DNA of 64,000 nt from the NCBI GenBank assembly GCA_002189035.1, contig CM007992.1, forward strand, positions 2,232,001 to 2,296,000, written 5' to 3'. The DNA comes from Utricularia gibba. Lineage: Eukaryota; Streptophyta; Magnoliopsida; Lamiales; Lentibulariaceae. Under the pieces are notes generated by a model. The model saw only the letters and a list, made by a program, of their open reading frames with translations, had not been told where the DNA came from and ran no database searches. Shown here piece by piece: positions 24,597 through 35,263 of the stretch; positions within the stretch are counted from its first letter, which is position 1, and the number at the start of each line of letters is the position of its first letter. Position numbers and translations under genes: made by a program.

Positions 24597-24601
24597 ATAC
24601 A
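24597..24601. repeat. ATACA target site duplication, left
   Basis: ATACA directly precedes the 5' LTR and recurs at 34103-34107 directly after the 3' LTR: a perfect 5-bp duplication for the copia element between them. Confidence 0.92.
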
Positions 24602-25050
24602 TGTGGAAACCCACGTGGTTCCATGTACAGGCTGGAAGGTACACATGTTGGGCCTAAGAGAGATGAGGGGCCTGACGGTTATCCCATGATCAGCAGCAGT
24701 TGCAGCAGGCATGATCATGAAGACGTGAGTAGAGCTCACAGGAGGTGGTGTGGGAGAATTCTGTCTGTTACGGGGGTGCTGCTGGTTGGGTGCTATTGTG
24801 TGTCAAACAGAGCATCTTCATCAAGGCTGCAAGGAAGGGTGTAGTAGTTGTTGTGTGTATTGCCTTTCCTATTGTATTGATTACCCGAACATAGTGAAAT
24901 TCTCACTGTTAGGAGTTGCTCTCAACACAAGGAGGTTTCCCCATTATTGGGGTTTTACCTGGCTAAATCGCTGTCTCCTTTCCCTAATTATACTACGCAT
25001 ACAAGGACTACGTGCAGGTGGCTGGGCTATATTTATTTGCTGCGCTTACA
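24602..25050 (+). repeat. copia 5' LTR
   Basis: Begins TGTGGAAACCCACGTGG and ends GCTGCGCTTACA. By hand it differs from the 3' LTR at about 30 positions over about 425 aligned bases, plus a roughly 21-base indel near 24717. Confidence 0.93.
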
Positions 25051-25052
25051 AT

Positions 25053-25064
25053 TGGTATCGGAGC
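25053..25064 (+). promoter_or_regulatory. copia primer binding site
   Basis: TGGTATCGGAGC lies two bases after the 5' LTR. It matches the plant initiator tRNA-Met priming site TGGTATCAGAGC except at one base. Confidence 0.85.
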
Positions 25065-26372
25065 ATGGATGAGGTCCATGGGGTGCTGAAGCTGACGTCC
25101 ACGAACTATTCATTGTGGCGATCCAACACCTTTGTTGCAAGAGGAATTACGTCGCAAGAATACCATTGCTGGGAAAAGTGGCGACCTCAAAAATACACTA
25201 GCTTTTGGAGATGGAAATTTCAGGGGAAGATCACAAGACCGGCAAGGAAGGTGTGAGTGAGATAAGTCCAAATGTAGGGACAAATCTCAAGGGGCTGATG
25301 GTAAGTATGCTAAAAAATATGAATCACGGTCTTGTTTCTTCTATGGAAAAAAGGGCCATTTGAGAAAGGATTGTCGTGGGTATAAACGTGCCCAACAAGA
25401 GAAGAAGGACACGAAGACGTCTGATAATGCTGAGATGAATACCTCAGCATACCTTAGTGAAATTGATGATGACCTTTTAGTGTTGCTTGTAGCAGAGGCC
25501 GGAGAAGCGGGGCTTGTTAACTCTTGGTTTGTAGATTCGGCTGCTTCGTTTCATGCCTCTCCATTTCGTGATGGTTTGCTGAATTATAAGCCATGCAATT
25601 CTAGTACGGTGAGGATGGGAAATCAATCGGTGTTTGAGATTGCTGGAATTGGTGACTTGGTAGTCATCATAGATCTGGGTGCACCACTAAAGCTGACTGA
25701 AGTCAGACATGTTACATCGTTGCGTGTAAATTTACTCTCTGCAGGTGAGCTGGATGTTGTAGGGTTTCGGCATAGTCTCGGTGCACAAACCTGGAAATTA
25801 ATTAGAGGTTCTATGAAGGTTGCTACTAGCACTATGGTTGGAAGGCTCTATCTGACAGAGTTAAAACCTGTAACCCAAGGGATATTGGCAGCAGCAGAGC
25901 GGGATGTGATTTATGACATATGGCATCGACGGTTAGGCCATCTCTCAGAATCTAGAATTCAGAAATTAATTCGGAATCAGCTGATAAATACATGCAATGC
26001 ATCAGCGGTTTGTGAAGACTGCATCTATGGAAAACAACACAGCGTTGCTTTCAAGTCAATGATATACAAGAGTAAGAACAAGCTGGATGTTATCTTTTCT
26101 GATGTAGGTGGTCCGGTGAACGTTCCAACAGCAGGAGGCATGAGGCATTACCTAACCTTTGTTGATGATGCCATCCGCAAGTCATGGGTCTACTTGGTGA
26201 ATTGAAAATCAGAGGTGTTTGAGTGTTTCAAGCAGTTCGATGTCATGGTGGAATGGGAAACGGGTATGAAGCTGAAATGCTTGTGGACTGAAAATGGTGG
26301 GGAGTATTGCAGCACAGAATTCAAACAATACTGTCTAGATCTGGGTATCAAGAAGGTATCAATGGAACCAGG
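25065..26372 (+). pseudogene. copia gag, protease and first half of integrase
   Basis: Gag starts MDEVHGVLKLTSTNYSLW (25065 on) and soon loses its middle part by deletion. The zinc knuckle reads CFFYGKKGHLRKDC (about 25335-25376): the second Cys is Tyr, so zinc binding would be lost. Protease shows WFVDSAASFHASP (near 25525-25563). Pre-integrase has DIWHRRLGHLSESRI (near 25917-25961). The integrase core has DVIFSDVGGPVN and LTFVDDAIRKSWVYL, a stop at 26202-26204, then WTENGGEYCSTEFKQYC. The reading breaks after SMEPG at the gypsy insertion and resumes at 31479 with TPQHNPIAERLN, restoring the conserved integrase motif around the third catalytic residue. Confidence 0.92.
26368..26372. repeat. 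CCAGG target site duplication, left side of gypsy
   Basis: CCAGG precedes the gypsy terminus TGATGCGTGTCG and recurs at 31474-31478 right after its other end, TTAACA. Joining across one copy restores the copia integrase frame. Confidence 0.93.
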
Positions 26373-26856
26373 TGATGCGTGTCGTTTCCACAACAAATTT
26401 TAATACTTTTAAAACTCGTAAAACACAAAAGTGTAGTACGGGTGTTGAACACAGAGAGTTGTTTTTAGGTGAAAGGTGAGGTACCCCGAATACAACTATC
26501 ATGATTTGTAAACGGTTTTGAAAGCAAAAGGTGCGAGAAACGTTGGTGATGAAGCATGAGTAAGGGAATAAGAGAGGGTTTGAATAAACTACTGAAATAA
26601 ATGTAAGTGATGAACCTTAAATAAAGTAAATGTTCCTGGGTTTGGATCCCGTCCAGCTATGTTCGTTGCGTCTTCACTCTTCTTTGGTCTTCTTGAGTAC
26701 TTAGTTATAGGAGTAAGGAATTGCCTACCCTCTTTTACACTCTCTTGCAAGAAGGCACGGGAATAGCTCGATGTTGCTCCTCCTTGGATGAATGTGAGAA
26801 TACGAGGTCCTGCAACCGTACCATCACGGTCGAATTGCACGCGTGTACCCGAGTGT
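26373..26856 (-). repeat. gypsy 3' LTR, truncated
   Basis: In plus orientation it starts TGATGCGTGTCGTTTCC and follows the other LTR from about 26611 (ATGTAAGTGATGAACC) to about 26856 (CGAGTGTTTG). It then jumps straight into integrase coding sequence. About 240 bases after its start (up to 26610) are absent from the other LTR, so each LTR has its own deletion. Confidence 0.85.
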
Positions 26857-29800
26857 TTGTATGCCATGGCCTCGACCCACTTAGAAATGTAATCAACAAC
26901 AAGAAGGATATAAATCTTTCCCTTTGATGAAGGGAATGATCCCATGAAGTCAATACCCCAAGCATCGAAAATTTCGCACATCACAATGGGCTGAAGTGGC
27001 ATTTGGTCCCTGAAACCTAAGCCTCCACCTCTTTGGCAATTCGGGCATGCCTTGCAATGAAGGTATGCATCTCAAAAATTCACAATGTCTGTGTACCAGG
27101 GACTTCCATCACGGATCATGAATAAGTGTTCATCAAGGAAGTTGCCATCAATGGGGCTGGATGCTTCTCTAGAGGTAATGCGGCTAAGATGATCTACCAC
27201 CAAATTCTCGCATCAATTCTTATCTCGAATTTCTATGCCAAACTCCTGGAGCAATAGGATCCATCTGATAAGACAAGGTTTTGAATCCTTTTTGTTGAGG
27301 AGATACTTCAATGATGCATGATCGGAGTAAACAATGATCTTGGCTCCAAGCAAGTAGGGTCGGAATTTTTCCAATGCAAAAATGATGGCTAAAAGCTCCT
27401 TCTCTGTTGTCGTATAATTCCGCTGTGCATCATCTAGACATTTTGAGGCATAGTGGATCACATGTGATCCCTTCTCCAATTTCTGTCCTAGGACCGCTCC
27501 TAATGCTACATCACTAGCGTCACACATGAGCTCAAAAGGCAAATTCCAGTTAGGAGCCTGAATGATAGGGGCCGAAACAAGTCTTTCTTTCAAGGTATCA
27601 AAAGCTAACCGACAATTTTCATCAAAAGTGAAATCAACATCTTTGTGTAACAAGGCACATAAGGGGGATGCAATTTTCGAAAAATCTTGGATAAACCTTC
27701 TATAGAATCCCGCATGACCAGGAAAGGAGCGAATGTCTCGAACACAAGTAGGGTAAGGTAGTTTTTGGATTACCTCAACCTTTGCTTTGTCCACTTCAAT
27801 TCCTCTCTTGGAAACTATATGTTCCAAAATGATGCCTTGCTCAATCATAAAATGACACTTCTCATAGTTAAGCACAAGGTTAGTCTTAACACATCTTTTC
27901 AAAATCAAAGATAAGTTTCCTAAGCATTCATCAAAACTATTGCCATAAACAATGAAATCATCCATGAAGACCTCAATAATTTCTTCCACATACTCCGAAA
28001 AGATACTCACCATGCATCTTTGGAAAGTGGTAGGTGCATTGCATAATCCAAATGGCATCCTATAATAGGCAAAAGTTCCAAAAGGGCAGACAAAAACTAC
28101 CTTTGATTGATCTTCAAGAGCCACGGGAATTTGATGTAAACCGGAGTATCCATCCAAGCAACAATAATGGCTCTTCCCTGCAAGTCGTTCAAGCATTTGA
28201 TCTATAAAAGGAAGGGGATAGTGGTCTTTCCTGCTGGCAGAATTAAGCTTGCGATAGTCCACACACATCCTCCAACCATTTTGCACTCATGTGGGAATAA
28301 GTTCCCCTTGTTCATTGTTTATCACTGTGATACCAGTCATCTTTGGGACAACCTGCACACGGCTAACCCACTCACTGTCAGAGATATGATAAATGATACC
28401 TGCGGATAACAGCTTCAAAATCTCCTTCTTGACCACTTCCACCATCGGGGGGTTCAGTCTCCTCTGTGGCTGTCGAAATGGCTTCGTCCCATCCTCTAGG
28501 TAAATCCTGTGAGTGCAAATAGAAGGCTGATTCCCTTGATGTTAGCTAAAGTCCAACCAATTGCTTGTTTGTACTCTTGAAGCATAGCCTTAAGCTTCTC
28601 CTCCTGTTCCAAGGTTAGTAAACTAGAAACAATAACGGGTAGGGTCTCATCATCACCAAGAAACAAATATTTCAAATGTTCGGGCAAAGTCTTTAACTCT
28701 AATGATGGTGCTCAAATAACGGAAGGCACTAGCGGCTCGCTAGGTGTTTCTAAGCTAAGAAAAGAAACATCCTGCACATTAGGTTCATCGGGTGGATCAT
28801 CTGAATGATTAAAGACTTCAAGTTCAGCAAAAGGAAAGTCTTCATATTGAAAAATTTCCATGTCTAAATCACATTCGGGCCCTTGTTCATGGATCATCGC
28901 ATAGTGATCAGTGTCAATTTCACATGTGGAGATCGCATGTATCTCACTGATCTGATCAGGATGCTTCATGGCTTTATCAAGACTGAAATTCAGCACCTGC
29001 TCGTTGAATTGAAGACTAATGGTGCTTGTTTGAACATCAATCTTTGTACCTATAGTTGCCATGAATGGGCGTCTCAAAATAATGGACTCCGAAACCTTAG
29101 GTTTATCACTTTCCATGGGAATAACCAAAAAGTCAGCTAGAAAAACTAAATCCTTAACATGAACAAAAACATCTTCAATTCTACCATCTGGTAACTTGTG
29201 ATCTATCTGTTAATTGGCATACGACATTCGTCGGTTCAAGTTTGCCTAACTTAGATGTAAGAGACAAATAGAGAGATCTAGGCATGACATTAACCGAGGC
29301 ACCAAGATCACACATAGCTACTGAAATCTTTGTATTTCCAATGGTAACGAGAATTGAAAACATATCGGGATCCCTACACTTACGTGGCATTCTCCTTTGA
29401 ATGATGGTTGAAATGTTTTCAGTCAAAGGGATCACTTCTTATTCCACCTTTGCTTTCTTCTGCGGGTCACATAGGTCCTTCAGCAACTTGGCATACTTGG
29501 GGACCTGTTCAATCATATCAAGAAGAGGAATAGAAACATTAACCTTCTTCATCATTTCCATAAAAGTTTTCAGTCCTTTCTTGTCCTTGTTGCTTCTTCG
29601 AAGCCTCATCGAGAAGGGTGGCAGTATGACCAAAGGCTTGGTCTGGGAAACTTCAATTGCCTCCTTCTCTTGAACATCTTCAAGTAGCTTCGGAACATCA
29701 TTGTTTTGCACTGGTGAGTCATCTAGATCGTCACCAATGATTTCTTCATCAACATCAGAATCACTGTCTATGACCTCCAGCTCCTTTTCTTCGGACCTAT

Positions 29801-30511
29801 CTACCTTGTTTGTGAACCATTGGTAAGGGTTTGATAGCTCAGTCCCACTTCTTAGCGAGATGGCATTTATGTGCTCTGGATGCTGCAAGATTTGGCCTTT
29901 AGTGAGTCCATGCTGAGGGTAGGAGTTGCAGATTCGATTGAAACGATCATAATACTCTTGCAAGTTTTCTCCTTCACTCTGCATCATGGTTGTTAAGGCT
30001 CTCCTTCCGGCTGAAGCTCTTCCTAATGGTGCATAGCGATCTAAGAACTTTTGAACCATCTTCTCCCATGTGGCGATAGATGAAGGGGAAGTCCATAGAG
30101 CCACTCCAAAGCTCGTTCGGTAAGACTGAAGGGAAATACTCTAAGTTTGACCTGATTCTCCGTGGCTCCCTTGGGGCACATGGATGCACAAGCCGTGTTC
30201 AACTCACGTAGATGACGGTTAGGGTCATCATTTTCCCTTCCAGCAAAATTTGGAAGCGTCTAGAATAAGTAAGGACGTTGCTCATAGTCTTCTTCTCCAT
30301 CGAAAATGATGCATAAGGGACGGTCAGAGTGATTTGCAATGATTTCCTCCTTGATAGTCCGTAGTGCTGGTCCATAGTTAGTGGGAACTAGTACTGGAAA
30401 GTTTCCATGAGGTTGTTCTCCCAGGGTCTCAGGCACTACTGAAAAGTTTCCATGATGTCTCCAGTGGTTGAATAGGACGATTGCTCTCTCTTTTTGGCAA
30501 TAAAGTTTCAT
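26857..30511 (-). pseudogene. Athila-like gag-pol polyprotein, broken
   Basis: Gag, in two frames (30189-29974 and 30104 downward), has WEKMVQKFLDRYAP and ENLQEYYDRFNRICNSYPQH. A linker with HINAISLRSG follows. Protease (29435-29181) has VAMCDLGASVNVMPRSLY. Reverse transcriptase (28286 on) shows [20 protein letters not shown], then [14 protein letters not shown], and the catalytic [10 protein letters not shown]. RNase H has [15 protein letters not shown], then [20 protein letters not shown] and [12 protein letters not shown]. Integrase keeps only AWGIDFMGSFPSSKGK and VVDYISKWVEAMAY before truncation at 26857. Stops and frame changes near 27213, 28290-28496 and 29435 break it. Of the parts, RT and RNase H (28286-27213) are the longest open stretch, 357 codons. 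Confidence 0.92.
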
Positions 30512-30599
30512 TCAACCTCTTGGTCCAAAGGATATAGAACTTCTCGGAAAGATCTCAGGCTTGGACGAGCCCTTGATGGACCTGGCTGCATAAAAAGAG

Positions 30600-30712
30600 A
30601 AAAATAGAGCAGAAACGGAAACAAGAAAAGAAACAAGGAAAAGAAAGAAAAAAGAAAAAAAAAAGAAAAAGAAAAGAAGACAAAAGGGAAAAATAAAATG
30701 AAACTCACACAC
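30600..30712. repeat. purine-rich tract (plus strand) in gypsy leader
   Basis: A/G-rich run of A and GAAAAG units between the gypsy primer site and gag. It generates a fake Phe/Leu-rich open frame on the minus strand. Confidence 0.8.
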
Positions 30713-30739
30713 ATAACACCAAACACAAAAAATTCAACT

Positions 30740-30756
30740 CCCCGACAATGGCGCCA
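30740..30756 (-). promoter_or_regulatory. gypsy primer binding site
   Basis: The minus strand reads TGGCGCCATTGTCGGGG a few bases inside the 5' LTR. TGGCGCC(G)TTG(C)CGGGG is the priming site typical of plant Athila/Tat gypsy elements; two positions differ from that form. Confidence 0.75.
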
Positions 30757-30762
30757 AAAATT

Positions 30763-31473
30763 TGATGTGTGTCACAAAAATGTAAGCGATGAACCTTAAA
30801 TAAAGTAAATGTTCCGGGGTTTGGAATCCTGTCCAGCTATGTTTTTGTATCTTCACTCTTCTCTGGTCTTCTTGAGTACTCGGTTATAGGAGTAAGGAAT
30901 TGCCTATCCTCCCTTACACTCTCTTGCAAGAAGGCATGGGAATAGCCCAATATTGCTCCTCCTTGGATGTACGTGAGAATAAGAGGTTCTGCCAGCATAC
31001 CCTCACGGCTGAATTGCGCGCGTGTGCCCGAGTGTTGCCAATGACCAGAATGGAACTTCAATGAGAGTCTGAGATTTCGTGTTCCTGGGGTTCTACTAAA
31101 CTTGGGATGACTTGCAAGCAACGTCTAACACTAGTACACTAATGATGTTGCCTGTCAGAGACTCCCTTGTTCCGCACGTCAAGGCTCATGATTAAGCGTC
31201 TGCAGTCTTCCGGAAATCAAGGGAATGTCAGCTTGGGAAGATGCAATTTGTCGCCATCTGATGCTCTCTTTCTCTCACTTGCTGCCATGTGTGCACCTCT
31301 AGAAAAACTCAATTAAAACTAGTAAAATTAATAGATAAAATACAAGATTTAGGATAATTACCCTAAACTAGATAAAAACCTAAATCTCATATTATAGACT
31401 CGTAATTAGACACTTCTAATAACATTAAGACATAAAAGCAGCCTAAGAAATAGTAAGAAAATAGCACTTAACA
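30763..31473 (-). repeat. gypsy 5' LTR
   Basis: 711 bases in plus orientation from TGATGTGTGTC to CACTTAACA. Compared with the truncated partner it lacks about 230 bases near its start. By hand about 28 substitutions separate the two over about 255 shared bases. Confidence 0.88.
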
Positions 31474-31478
31474 CCAGG
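31474..31478. repeat. CCAGG target site duplication, right side of gypsy
   Basis: Matches 26368-26372; the copia integrase resumes here. Confidence 0.93.
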
Positions 31479-33660
31479 GACCCCACAGCATAACCCAATT
31501 GCAGAACGCTTGAATCAAACTCTATTCGATAAGGTGAGGTGTATGCTCAAAGGTGGTGAGCTGCCTGGTAAATTCTGGGGTGAGGCTTTAAAAACAGCCT
31601 GTTATCTGTCAAATCGAAGTCCCAAGAAGGCCCTGGAATTTCGGATACCAAAAGAATTATGATCAGGATGGTCTGTGAATCTACATCATTTACGTGTGTT
31701 TGGTTGTAAATCATTTGTTCTTGTTCCAAGTGAGCAGAGAAGGAAGTTGGATGATCACTCCAGACCGTGTGTGTTTCTAGGATTTGGAGACACAGAGAAG
31801 GGATATCGTTTATGGGATCCTGCAGCAAGCAAAATCGTGAGATCTAGGGATGTTGAGTTTTTGGAAGATCAGAAAAGTGCAGGGGTAGAAACAGGGACGT
31901 TACAGCCAGAGGTGCAATTGAACTTGGAGTTTCAGCGATGTAATAGCAGTGATGAAGCTTCAGCAGACAGTTTGCTGAAGAGATCACACGAGAGGTATCT
32001 CATTCTGAAGAACCTACTGCTCATGGACACACATCAGCAGCAGCATCGCAACCTGTGCAGAGATCTTCTAGAGGTATTGTACCTAGCACCAGGTACACAC
32101 CTGCAGAATTTATTTTCATTACGGAAGAAGCTGAACCAGAAACGGTTGCTGAAGTGCTACAAGCGCCAGATAAATCTCAGTGGCTGGAAGCAATGAAAGA
32201 AGAAATGCACTCAGTGTGGCAGAACAACACATATGAGCTTACGAATTTGCCATAGGGAAGAAGAGCATTAGATAACAAATGGATTTTTAAGTTGAAGCGA
32301 AATCCTGATGATAGTGTTAGGTACAATGCAAGGATTGTGGTTAAGGGGTTTAACCAGAAAGAGGGTGTGGATTATCAAGAAATTTTCTCCCCTATAGCCA
32401 AGATTTCAGTTATTCAGATTCTTCTGTCATTTGCAGCAATGTTGGACTTGGAGTTGCATCAAATGGATGTGAAAACCGCATTTTTGCATGGAGAATTAGA
32501 AGAGGAGATTTTTATGAAACAAATTCCTGGATTTATTCAGCAAGGAAGTGAACATTTAGTATGCAAACTCAAGAGAAGCTTGTATGGTTTGAAGCAGGCT
32601 CCTAGACAATGGAATCAAAAGTTTGATGCCTACATGATTGAGCTGGGTTATCATAAATCAATATCTGATTCATGTGTTTATTTCCAGAGGTTTTCTGATG
32701 ATATTCTCATACTTGTGCTCTACGTGGATGACATGTTGCTGTTAAGCCAGTAGCTGGGTTTGATAAATCGATTGAAGCAATAGCTCAGTAGGGCATTTGA
32801 GATGAAGGATCTTGGAGAAGCCAAATATATTTTGGGCATTGACATTTCACGGAATCGAGGCACAGGCAGTGCATCATTGTGTCAGATGCGGTATATCAAA
32901 CAGGTGATTAAAAAGTTTGGCATGTCTGAGAGTAAGTACCAATGAACCCATTAATTATATTATCTACTGGGTCTTTTTCGACATCAGAGAGTGAAAGTGA
33001 GGAGACAAAGACTCTACCTTTTGCGTCTCTAGTTAGTTCGGTTATGTATATAATGCTAGGCACGAGACCAGATATTGCCTACACTGTTAGTCGCATCAGC
33101 AGATTTATGGGAGGCACCTAAGTGGCTTTTGCGCTATCTCAAAGGAATATGGGTCAAAAGCTGGTATTCCCCAGGTGTATGTGGACTCAGATTTAGCAAG
33201 GGATGTGGACACCTGCAGGTTAACTACAGGCTTGATTACTATGCTAGGCGGTGTTGGTGTTATTTGGATGTCATCTCTGCAGAAAAGTGTAACATTATCC
33301 TCCACAGAAGCAGAGTACATGGCACTTGCATAAGCTGGAAAAGAGGCTGTGTGGCTGGATTGGTTTCTGGAAGAGTTTGGTTGGAAAAATCCAAATCAGA
33401 AGGTGCAGATATTGTATGATAATCAGAGTGCAATAGCCCTCAGTAAGCATGGTGCACACCATTCTCGTACCAAGCATATAGACATCAGATATCACTAGAT
33501 CCGTGAATTGCTAAGTGAGAATCGGGTTAAGTTGCTGAAGGTAAGTACGGAGCAGAATGTTACTGATTTAATGACAAAAAGTCTGGCTTCTTCGAGGCAC
33601 TTGATGCTGTTGAAAGAAGCTAGGCTACGCTTGCAGTGTTGATGCAGTATAGACCTTCCA
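31479..33660 (+). pseudogene. copia integrase second half, reverse transcriptase, RNase H
   Basis: Continues the outer copia after the gypsy. The integrase end reads TPQHNPIAERLNQTL and then NLHHLRVFGCKSFVLVPSEQ. Reverse transcriptase (about 32280-32950) has VKGFNQKEGVDYQEIFSPIA, then [35 protein letters not shown] and the intact catalytic box LYVDDMLL. TAG stops follow directly in LLLSQ*LGLINRLKQ*LS. Frameshifts scatter the RNase H, but STEAEYMALA (near 33300-33335), YDNQSAIALSKHGAHHSRTK and VSTEQNVTDLMTKSL remain readable. A stop near 32255 also interrupts the start of RT. Confidence 0.92.
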
Positions 33661-33675
33661 GCCTGAGGGGGTGAT
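33661..33675 (+). promoter_or_regulatory. copia polypurine tract
   Basis: GAGGGGGTGAT immediately upstream of the 3' LTR start TGTGG, the usual priming site for plus-strand synthesis. Confidence 0.8.
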
Positions 33676-34102
33676 TGTGGAAACTCACGTGGTTCCATGT
33701 ACATGCTGGAAGGTACACATGTTGAGCCTAAGAGAGATGAGGGGCTTGACGGTTATCCCATGATCAGCAGTAGTTGCAGCAGGCATGATCATAGGAGGTG
33801 GTGTGGGAGAATCATGTCTGTTACGGGGGTGCTGAGGGTTGGGTGCTGCTGTGTGTCAAATAGAGCATCTTCATCAAGGCTGCAAGGAAGGGTGTAGTAT
33901 TTGCTATGTGTGTTGCCTTTCCTATTGTATTGATTACCCAAACATAGTGACATTCTCACTGTTGGGAGTTGCTCTCAACACCAGGAGGTTTCCGCATTGT
34001 TAGGGTTTACTTGGCTAAATCGCTGTCTCCTTTCCCTAATTATACGATGCGTACAAGCACTACGTGCAGGTGGCTGGGCTATATTTATTTGATGCGCTTA
34101 CA
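33676..34102 (+). repeat. copia 3' LTR
   Basis: Begins TGTGGAAACTCACGTGG and ends GATGCGCTTACA; pairs with 24602-25050. It is followed by the target duplication ATACA at 34103-34107. Confidence 0.93.
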
Positions 34103-34107
34103 ATACA

Positions 34108-34479
34108 TTTGATATGAGTCTTCATTATCAAGGGTAACTCTCTCGCACCTTTGATGCTGACCAATCGAGTGACAACTAAAGACAATTGAAGATATAATGA
34201 GCTTAGACGATGATGATTGATGAAGCCATTAGGAAACAAAGCACAATACAACACAACAAAAGAACTTGGCATGTTTCTTTTATACTTTAGATAATTGAGA
34301 TAATACTATAAACACTAGATAATAGCATTGTTTTCAAATGATGATAAATAAAAAGTTTTTATGTGATGTCTAAAATCATTCTATTTATGGTGCGATGAAT
34401 GTGGTTCAGCCATGCACTTATCAATGGGTTGACGCTGGAGAATGATGATGAACATTTATGAACTCGAAGATCTTTGTTC
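34108..34479. other. spacer, no feature recognised
   Basis: Original flank of the copia insertion; it joins the sequence before 24597. Weak similarity to the region upstream of the LTR copy at 46370 begins around 34385, so part may belong to the same old repeat. Confidence 0.45.
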
Positions 34480-35263
34480 AGTGTCATTTTCTAGTTTATT
34501 ATTATGTATTATTAGGTGTTAATCTTGTATTAAGTCGCCCGAATAAGGAGTCTTATTGTTAAATATTTGATTTTATTAGAAAATTTCTCTTTTTCTATTT
34601 TGTATATATTTTTTTTGTCTTTTTCGTGCACTTTGATCGAGATATGTCAGGAGGCAGTCGTGGAGTAGCAAGAGATCAAACTCTGACTTTTCGTGCCTTG
34701 CACGCAACTTGGAACAGCTGTGGGTTTAAGATTGACATTAGTGAAGGCCCCTGACATATGGTATATCAGAGTCTGCAGCAATGATTGGATGCTAACTTGC
34801 ATGTAAAGAAAAGCTGGTGGCGCACGCAAGACAGAAGGAATGATGGGAAGAGGACCAGAAGGAGTTAATGCACAATAGGGAGTGATATAAAAGCAACTTG
34901 GAACACTTATTTTGAGATTTTGAGATTTTTGGATTTTTGACGTTATCTTTGTACTTAGAACTTTTCAGTTCTTCCTCTCTCTCAAGGGAGGAAGAACACT
35001 TAGCTTTTATTTTCATTTCTGTTTTCATGGCCCTTTTGGGCTAAACTCTTTTAATTTTTGGGAGTAGATGAAGTTTCCTTTCAAGTCATGAGCATTCCAC
35101 TCGGTTCTTCATAAGATTCACTCCAGATTTCGCATACTTCCACGCATTTTGTTGCAGTCTTTCTGTAACAACTCTTAGTCACGGTCCAGGAGTAGCAGGC
35201 CACTCTTTGTGGATTTTAATGAAAGAACTGAATGGTAGGATGGTTACCAATGCGTGCACTGGT
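34480..35263 (+). repeat. gypsy-family LTR fragment (copy A)
   Basis: Contains AGGTGTTAATCTTGTATTAA near 34515. A long block from about 34640 to 35240 aligns by eye with the reverse complement of 45130-45720 and with 46430-46760. Shared landmarks are the CTTCCTCTCTCTCAAGGGAGG/AAGA segment, TTTCCTTTCAAGTC(A)TGAGCAT and GTGGATTTTAATGAA. It is cut at 35263 where the next copia LTR begins. The 5' boundary is uncertain because similarity runs upstream of TGTTAA. Confidence 0.7.

Follow-up and report, generated by a model that had tools for sequence, protein, structure and literature searches.

The window (the whole 64,000-nucleotide stretch of Utricularia gibba DNA that was analysed) contains a Ty1/copia retrotransposon interrupted by a Ty3/gypsy retrotransposon, and the coordinates of both are collected in Table 1. 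The gypsy lies entirely inside the integrase region of the copia, and both pairs of target-site duplications (TSDs) are present. Pfam matches of the copia comprise gag-pre-integrase, SH3-like and RVT_2 domains, and its integrase precedes the RVT_2 reverse transcriptase (RT), which is the Ty1/copia order. It shares gag-pre-integrase, integrase, RVT_2 RT and a 5-bp TSD with Ty1/copia elements, but differs in its low copy number and in long terminal repeats (LTRs) with unequal change counts. Adjoining this copia, a high-copy repeat of ~625 bp was observed at 34475–35100 of the window, of which at least 39 other copies exist at 78–84% identity. The gypsy gave Pfam matches to gag, RVT_1 and RNase H, and its domains follow the Ty3/gypsy order of RT, RNase H and integrase, of which the integrase remnant is a 160-aa piece with no Pfam match that was called from its position and sequence only. 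Remnants of gag, RT, RNase H and integrase, the 5-bp TSD, the TG...CA LTR ends and the high copy number are all shared with plant-type Ty3/gypsy elements carrying a TGGCGCC primer site, from which the present element differs in having lost sequence through private deletions in each LTR. Going by its primer site, it may belong to a Tat/Athila-like clade.

Table 1. Features of the nested copia and gypsy elements (positions in the window).
Feature	Position	Strand	Basis or remark
Copia TSD ATACA, left	24597..24601	+	sequence
Copia, whole element	24602..34101	+	TG...CA ends, ATACA on both sides
Copia 5' LTR (left)	24602..25047	+	TG...CA, then primer-site-like TTGGTATCGGAGC
Copia internal, first half: gag-pre-integrase, Pol beta-barrel domain, integrase start	25051..26372	+	PF13976, PF22936
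Gypsy TSD CCAGG, left	26368..26372	+	sequence
Gypsy, whole element	26373..31473	-	TG...CA ends
Gypsy 3' LTR (left), last 485 bp kept	26373..26857	-	junction in no other scored copy
Core of left gypsy LTR alignable to right, 258 aligned sites	26599..26857	-	alignment
Gypsy internal: integrase remnant, RNase H, RT, gag	26858..30762	-	PF17917, PF17919, PF00078, PF03732
Gypsy tRNA-type primer site adjoining right LTR, motif TGGCGCCA	within 26858..30762	-	sequence
Gypsy 5' LTR (right), two deletions vs other copies	30763..31473	-	copy comparison
Core of right gypsy LTR alignable to left	30778..31036	-	alignment
Gypsy TSD CCAGG, right	31474..31478	+	sequence
Copia internal, second half: rest of integrase, SH3-like, RT, RNase H region; stop codons present	31479..33675	+	PF25597, PF07727
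Copia 3' LTR (right), 21-bp deletion vs left LTR and two related copies	33676..34101	+	alignment
Copia TSD ATACA, right	34102..34106	+	sequence

The order of the two insertions was read from the junctions. When the flanks of the gypsy are joined, the reading of the copia integrase resumes across the insert (SMEPG followed directly by TPQHNPIAERLNQ, as read from the sequence). This restored frame, together with the CCAGG duplications abutting both ends of the gypsy, identifies the gypsy as the later arrival, as an earlier note on this DNA had held. The LTR divergences nevertheless rank the two elements the other way round. Between the alignable cores of the gypsy LTRs, 28 of 258 sites are different (10.9%; 22 transitions and 6 transversions), giving a K80 distance of 0.120 ± 0.024 (SE), while for the copia LTRs the count is 29 of 426 (6.8%; 18 transitions and 11 transversions), giving 0.072 ± 0.014 (SE). 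The raw divergence of the guest is thus higher than that of the host, but the gap is not significant either by Fisher's test (p = 0.086) or on the K80 distances (z = 1.76, p = 0.079). These counts agree with those made earlier by hand (about 28 of 255 for the gypsy and about 30 of 425 for the copia), which rules out misalignment as the source of the conflict.

The sites were then divided into classes, for which 258 gypsy and 424 copia sites were compared. The gypsy LTR core is the richer in CG sites, at 12.8% compared with 5.2% for the copia LTR, and a larger fraction of these sites has decayed in the gypsy (15 of 33) than in the copia (5 of 22). Transversions are equally frequent in the two pairs (gypsy 6/258, 2.3%; copia 11/424, 2.6%; p = 1.0), whereas transitions alone differ (22/258 vs 18/424, p = 0.028). 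When CG sites were dropped, the gypsy pair differed at 13 of 225 sites (5.8%) and the copia pair at 24 of 402 (6.0%; p = 1.0), and dropping both CG and CHG sites left 9 of 209 (4.3%) and 13 of 351 (3.7%; p = 0.82), respectively. When sites were instead classed by their inferred ancestral state, the non-CG values were 16/225 (7.1%) and 27/411 (6.6%; p = 0.87). The inverted divergence therefore does not survive the removal of methylation-prone sites, whether it is judged on non-CG sites, on transversions or on ancestral classes: in the classes of change without methylation drive both pairs are equally diverged, and the residual gap is within the sampling error of 258 and 424 sites. The earlier note had taken the gypsy to look older than the copia, a reading that it had tied beforehand to the difference outlasting a CpG correction; the difference is removed by that correction. 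Its alternative suggestion, that methylation-type C-to-T change runs faster in the gypsy, fared better, as the excess consists entirely of transitions and is concentrated at CG. The same mutation spectrum was found in 40 other LTR copies of the gypsy family taken from the same genome, which exhibited a transition/transversion ratio of 5.6 and transition rates of 9.3% at CG, 8.2% at CHG, 4.0% at CHH and 0.9% at A/T sites. This spectrum fits the pattern expected for methylated cytosines, and its probable cause, to judge from the substitutions, is cytosine methylation. Elsewhere in the genome (G000:C142:224365-227463), several partial copies of the gypsy LTR at 78–91% identity were observed head to tail within ~3 kb, apparently forming a tandem array.

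The locus is hence very probably an ordinary nested pair, in which the CG-rich gypsy LTR decays fast enough for its raw divergence to overtake that of the CG-poor copia LTR. The copia would have inserted first, and the gypsy would have entered its integrase later, perhaps with little delay. The gypsy LTRs, identical at birth, would then have decayed independently, and their richness in CG combined with fast C-to-T change at CG and CHG, as is expected for methylated transposons, may have carried their raw divergence past that of the copia pair. The deletions in the gypsy LTRs would be later, private losses.

A simpler account is sampling noise: the two elements would be of similar age and mutate in the same way, and 258 sites would not suffice to rank one above the other. 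We consider this a serious possibility, only a little less than evenly balanced. It is favored by the raw tests given above (p = 0.086 and p = 0.079), by a test stratified over the four site classes (p = 0.21), and by the overdispersion of the copia pair described below, owing to which Poisson errors understate the variance. Against sampling noise alone are the difference in transitions (p = 0.028) and the direction of the gap, which is the one expected from a gypsy LTR rich in CG.

Some irregularity was found in the copia pair. Its LTRs failed the relative-rate test with each of two outgroups: changes unique to the left and right LTRs numbered 7 and 19 with C451 (p = 0.019), and 5 and 20 with C413 (p = 0.003). 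The right LTR thus carries about three to four times the changes of the left one, which has 4 sure derived sites and is unusually near the outgroup state. Because of this failure, the Poisson error understates the true error of the copia age, and the case for an inversion becomes weaker still. The relatives of this copia in the searchable genome are one close copy and two diverged ones, and as they are so few, the terminal branches of the copia are poorly resolved. The close copy is a 1.1-kb fragment on contig C304 (region L057, C304:317900-326900) of the copia 3' end that corresponds to 33061–34159 of the window; it spans the right LTR, to which it is 97% identical across the LTR, and ~57 bp of host flank past ATACA, with unrelated sequence on both sides. 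Ten derived sites and the 21-bp deletion are common to the right LTR and this C304 copy, after which the right LTR acquired eleven private changes and the C304 copy one. The internal region at 33061–33643, polarized against the C304 copy, was balanced (7 vs 5 changes, with 8 ambiguous), so that the acceleration in the right LTR does not clearly reach into the interior.

Such asymmetry might mean that the anomaly lies in the copia pair rather than the gypsy, one of the copia LTRs having been replaced or converted whole from another lineage to leave a composite host. We regard this as unlikely; if it were true, the host could not be dated via its LTRs. Conversion between the copia LTRs, or by another copia, such that the host came to look too young, is a quite improbable variant, although the broken rate test would suit it and the closeness of the left LTR to the outgroup state could reflect replacement by a less changed copy. 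The differences between the left and right LTRs are evenly spaced, with a longest identical run of 41 (P = 0.86), and no low-divergence tract was found inside the pair; the gene conversion that had been proposed earlier for these LTRs thus lacks any tract structure. Only one site has the left and right LTRs agreeing against the C304 copy since that copy split off, which gives no sign of recent left-to-right conversion, and no donor nearer to the left LTR was found in the searchable genome. Recent conversion between the two LTRs was rejected, given the even spacing and the C304 comparison.

It is very unlikely that recombination between two RNA templates gave the gypsy unequal LTRs from the start, as had been proposed earlier. 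Standard reverse transcription copies both LTRs from one strand, with which unequal LTRs at birth would conflict. At the sites where the gypsy LTRs differ, 16 derived states lie on the left LTR and 13 on the right, so that the pair passes a rate comparison, and each of these states was found in only 0–7 of the 40 other copies; the differences are mostly private or rare and are not subfamily markers. The two LTRs instead belong to one loose subfamily: minority states are common to both of them and also to the copies L017, L018 and L036, which carry both the T>G change of the left LTR (column 243) and that of the right LTR (column 1046). The gypsy pair on C451 (L017/L018) was excluded as a yardstick, as the LTR of L018 is truncated. 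In the unconstrained tree the left and right LTRs are not sisters, which might be taken to favor two templates, and they pair in 0% of 200 bootstrap trees; this tree is star-like, and the lack of pairing follows from that. A tree with the two LTRs as sisters has a log-likelihood 1.0 higher than the free tree (AU p = 0.56) and is thus at least as likely. Given the same markers in both LTRs and this sister tree, no origin from different subfamilies or sources was found, and unequal LTRs at birth were rejected.

The deletions in the gypsy LTRs had also been taken as a hint of chimeric birth. Compared with other copies, the right LTR lacks ~225 bp at 30771/30772 and ~420 bp at 31045/31046. The left LTR joins the integrase straight after LTR base 485 (junction 26857/26861), where ~4.5 kb are missing relative to the related C451 copy, a loss that removes the rest of the LTR, the polypurine tract (PPT) side and the sequence up to the integrase. 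Each LTR does therefore have a deletion of its own, as was noted earlier, but neither the left junction nor either of the right ones occurs in any other scored copy (the best 40 candidates were scored, and rare sharers could escape). Within this set the deletions are not shared or inherited from known templates, and the chimeric birth drawn from them gains no support.

For the nested pair with fast CG decay, the ages allowed by the LTRs can be bounded as follows. In a simulation with equal rates per class and a gypsy 0.8 times as old as the copia, a gap as large as that observed arose in 1.4% of cases. Taken with the higher CG decay in the gypsy, this implies that equal class rates need a gypsy of nearly the copia's age, and hence that the insertions followed each other closely or else that methylation is stronger on the gypsy LTR. 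The gypsy/copia age ratio estimated from transversions was 0.90 (0.27–2.64), and the interval without CG sites was 0.45–1.98; these intervals are so wide that the LTR data allow a younger gypsy but cannot demonstrate it, and it is the TSDs that demonstrate the order. Any exact interval between the two insertions would thus be a matter of inference.

Inverted LTR divergence in nested pairs is already known. Jedlicka, Lexa and Kejnovsky (2020; PMC7251063) reported that the nested element had the higher LTR divergence in 1042 of 4126 pairs (~25%) from 15 plant species; they proposed gene conversion in the host LTRs as the explanation, and the word methylation is absent from their main text. The present locus is alike in that a nested element is more diverged than its TSD-bearing host, but differs in having no conversion tract and in that its inversion is gone once CG sites are excluded. 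It is one ordinary example of the known phenomenon and yields no new mechanism; CG content and sampling are enough to account for it. The locus serves as a small worked case: when families of unequal CG content are compared, LTR dating can turn a known insertion order around, and the use of transversions or non-CG sites removes the conflict with that order.
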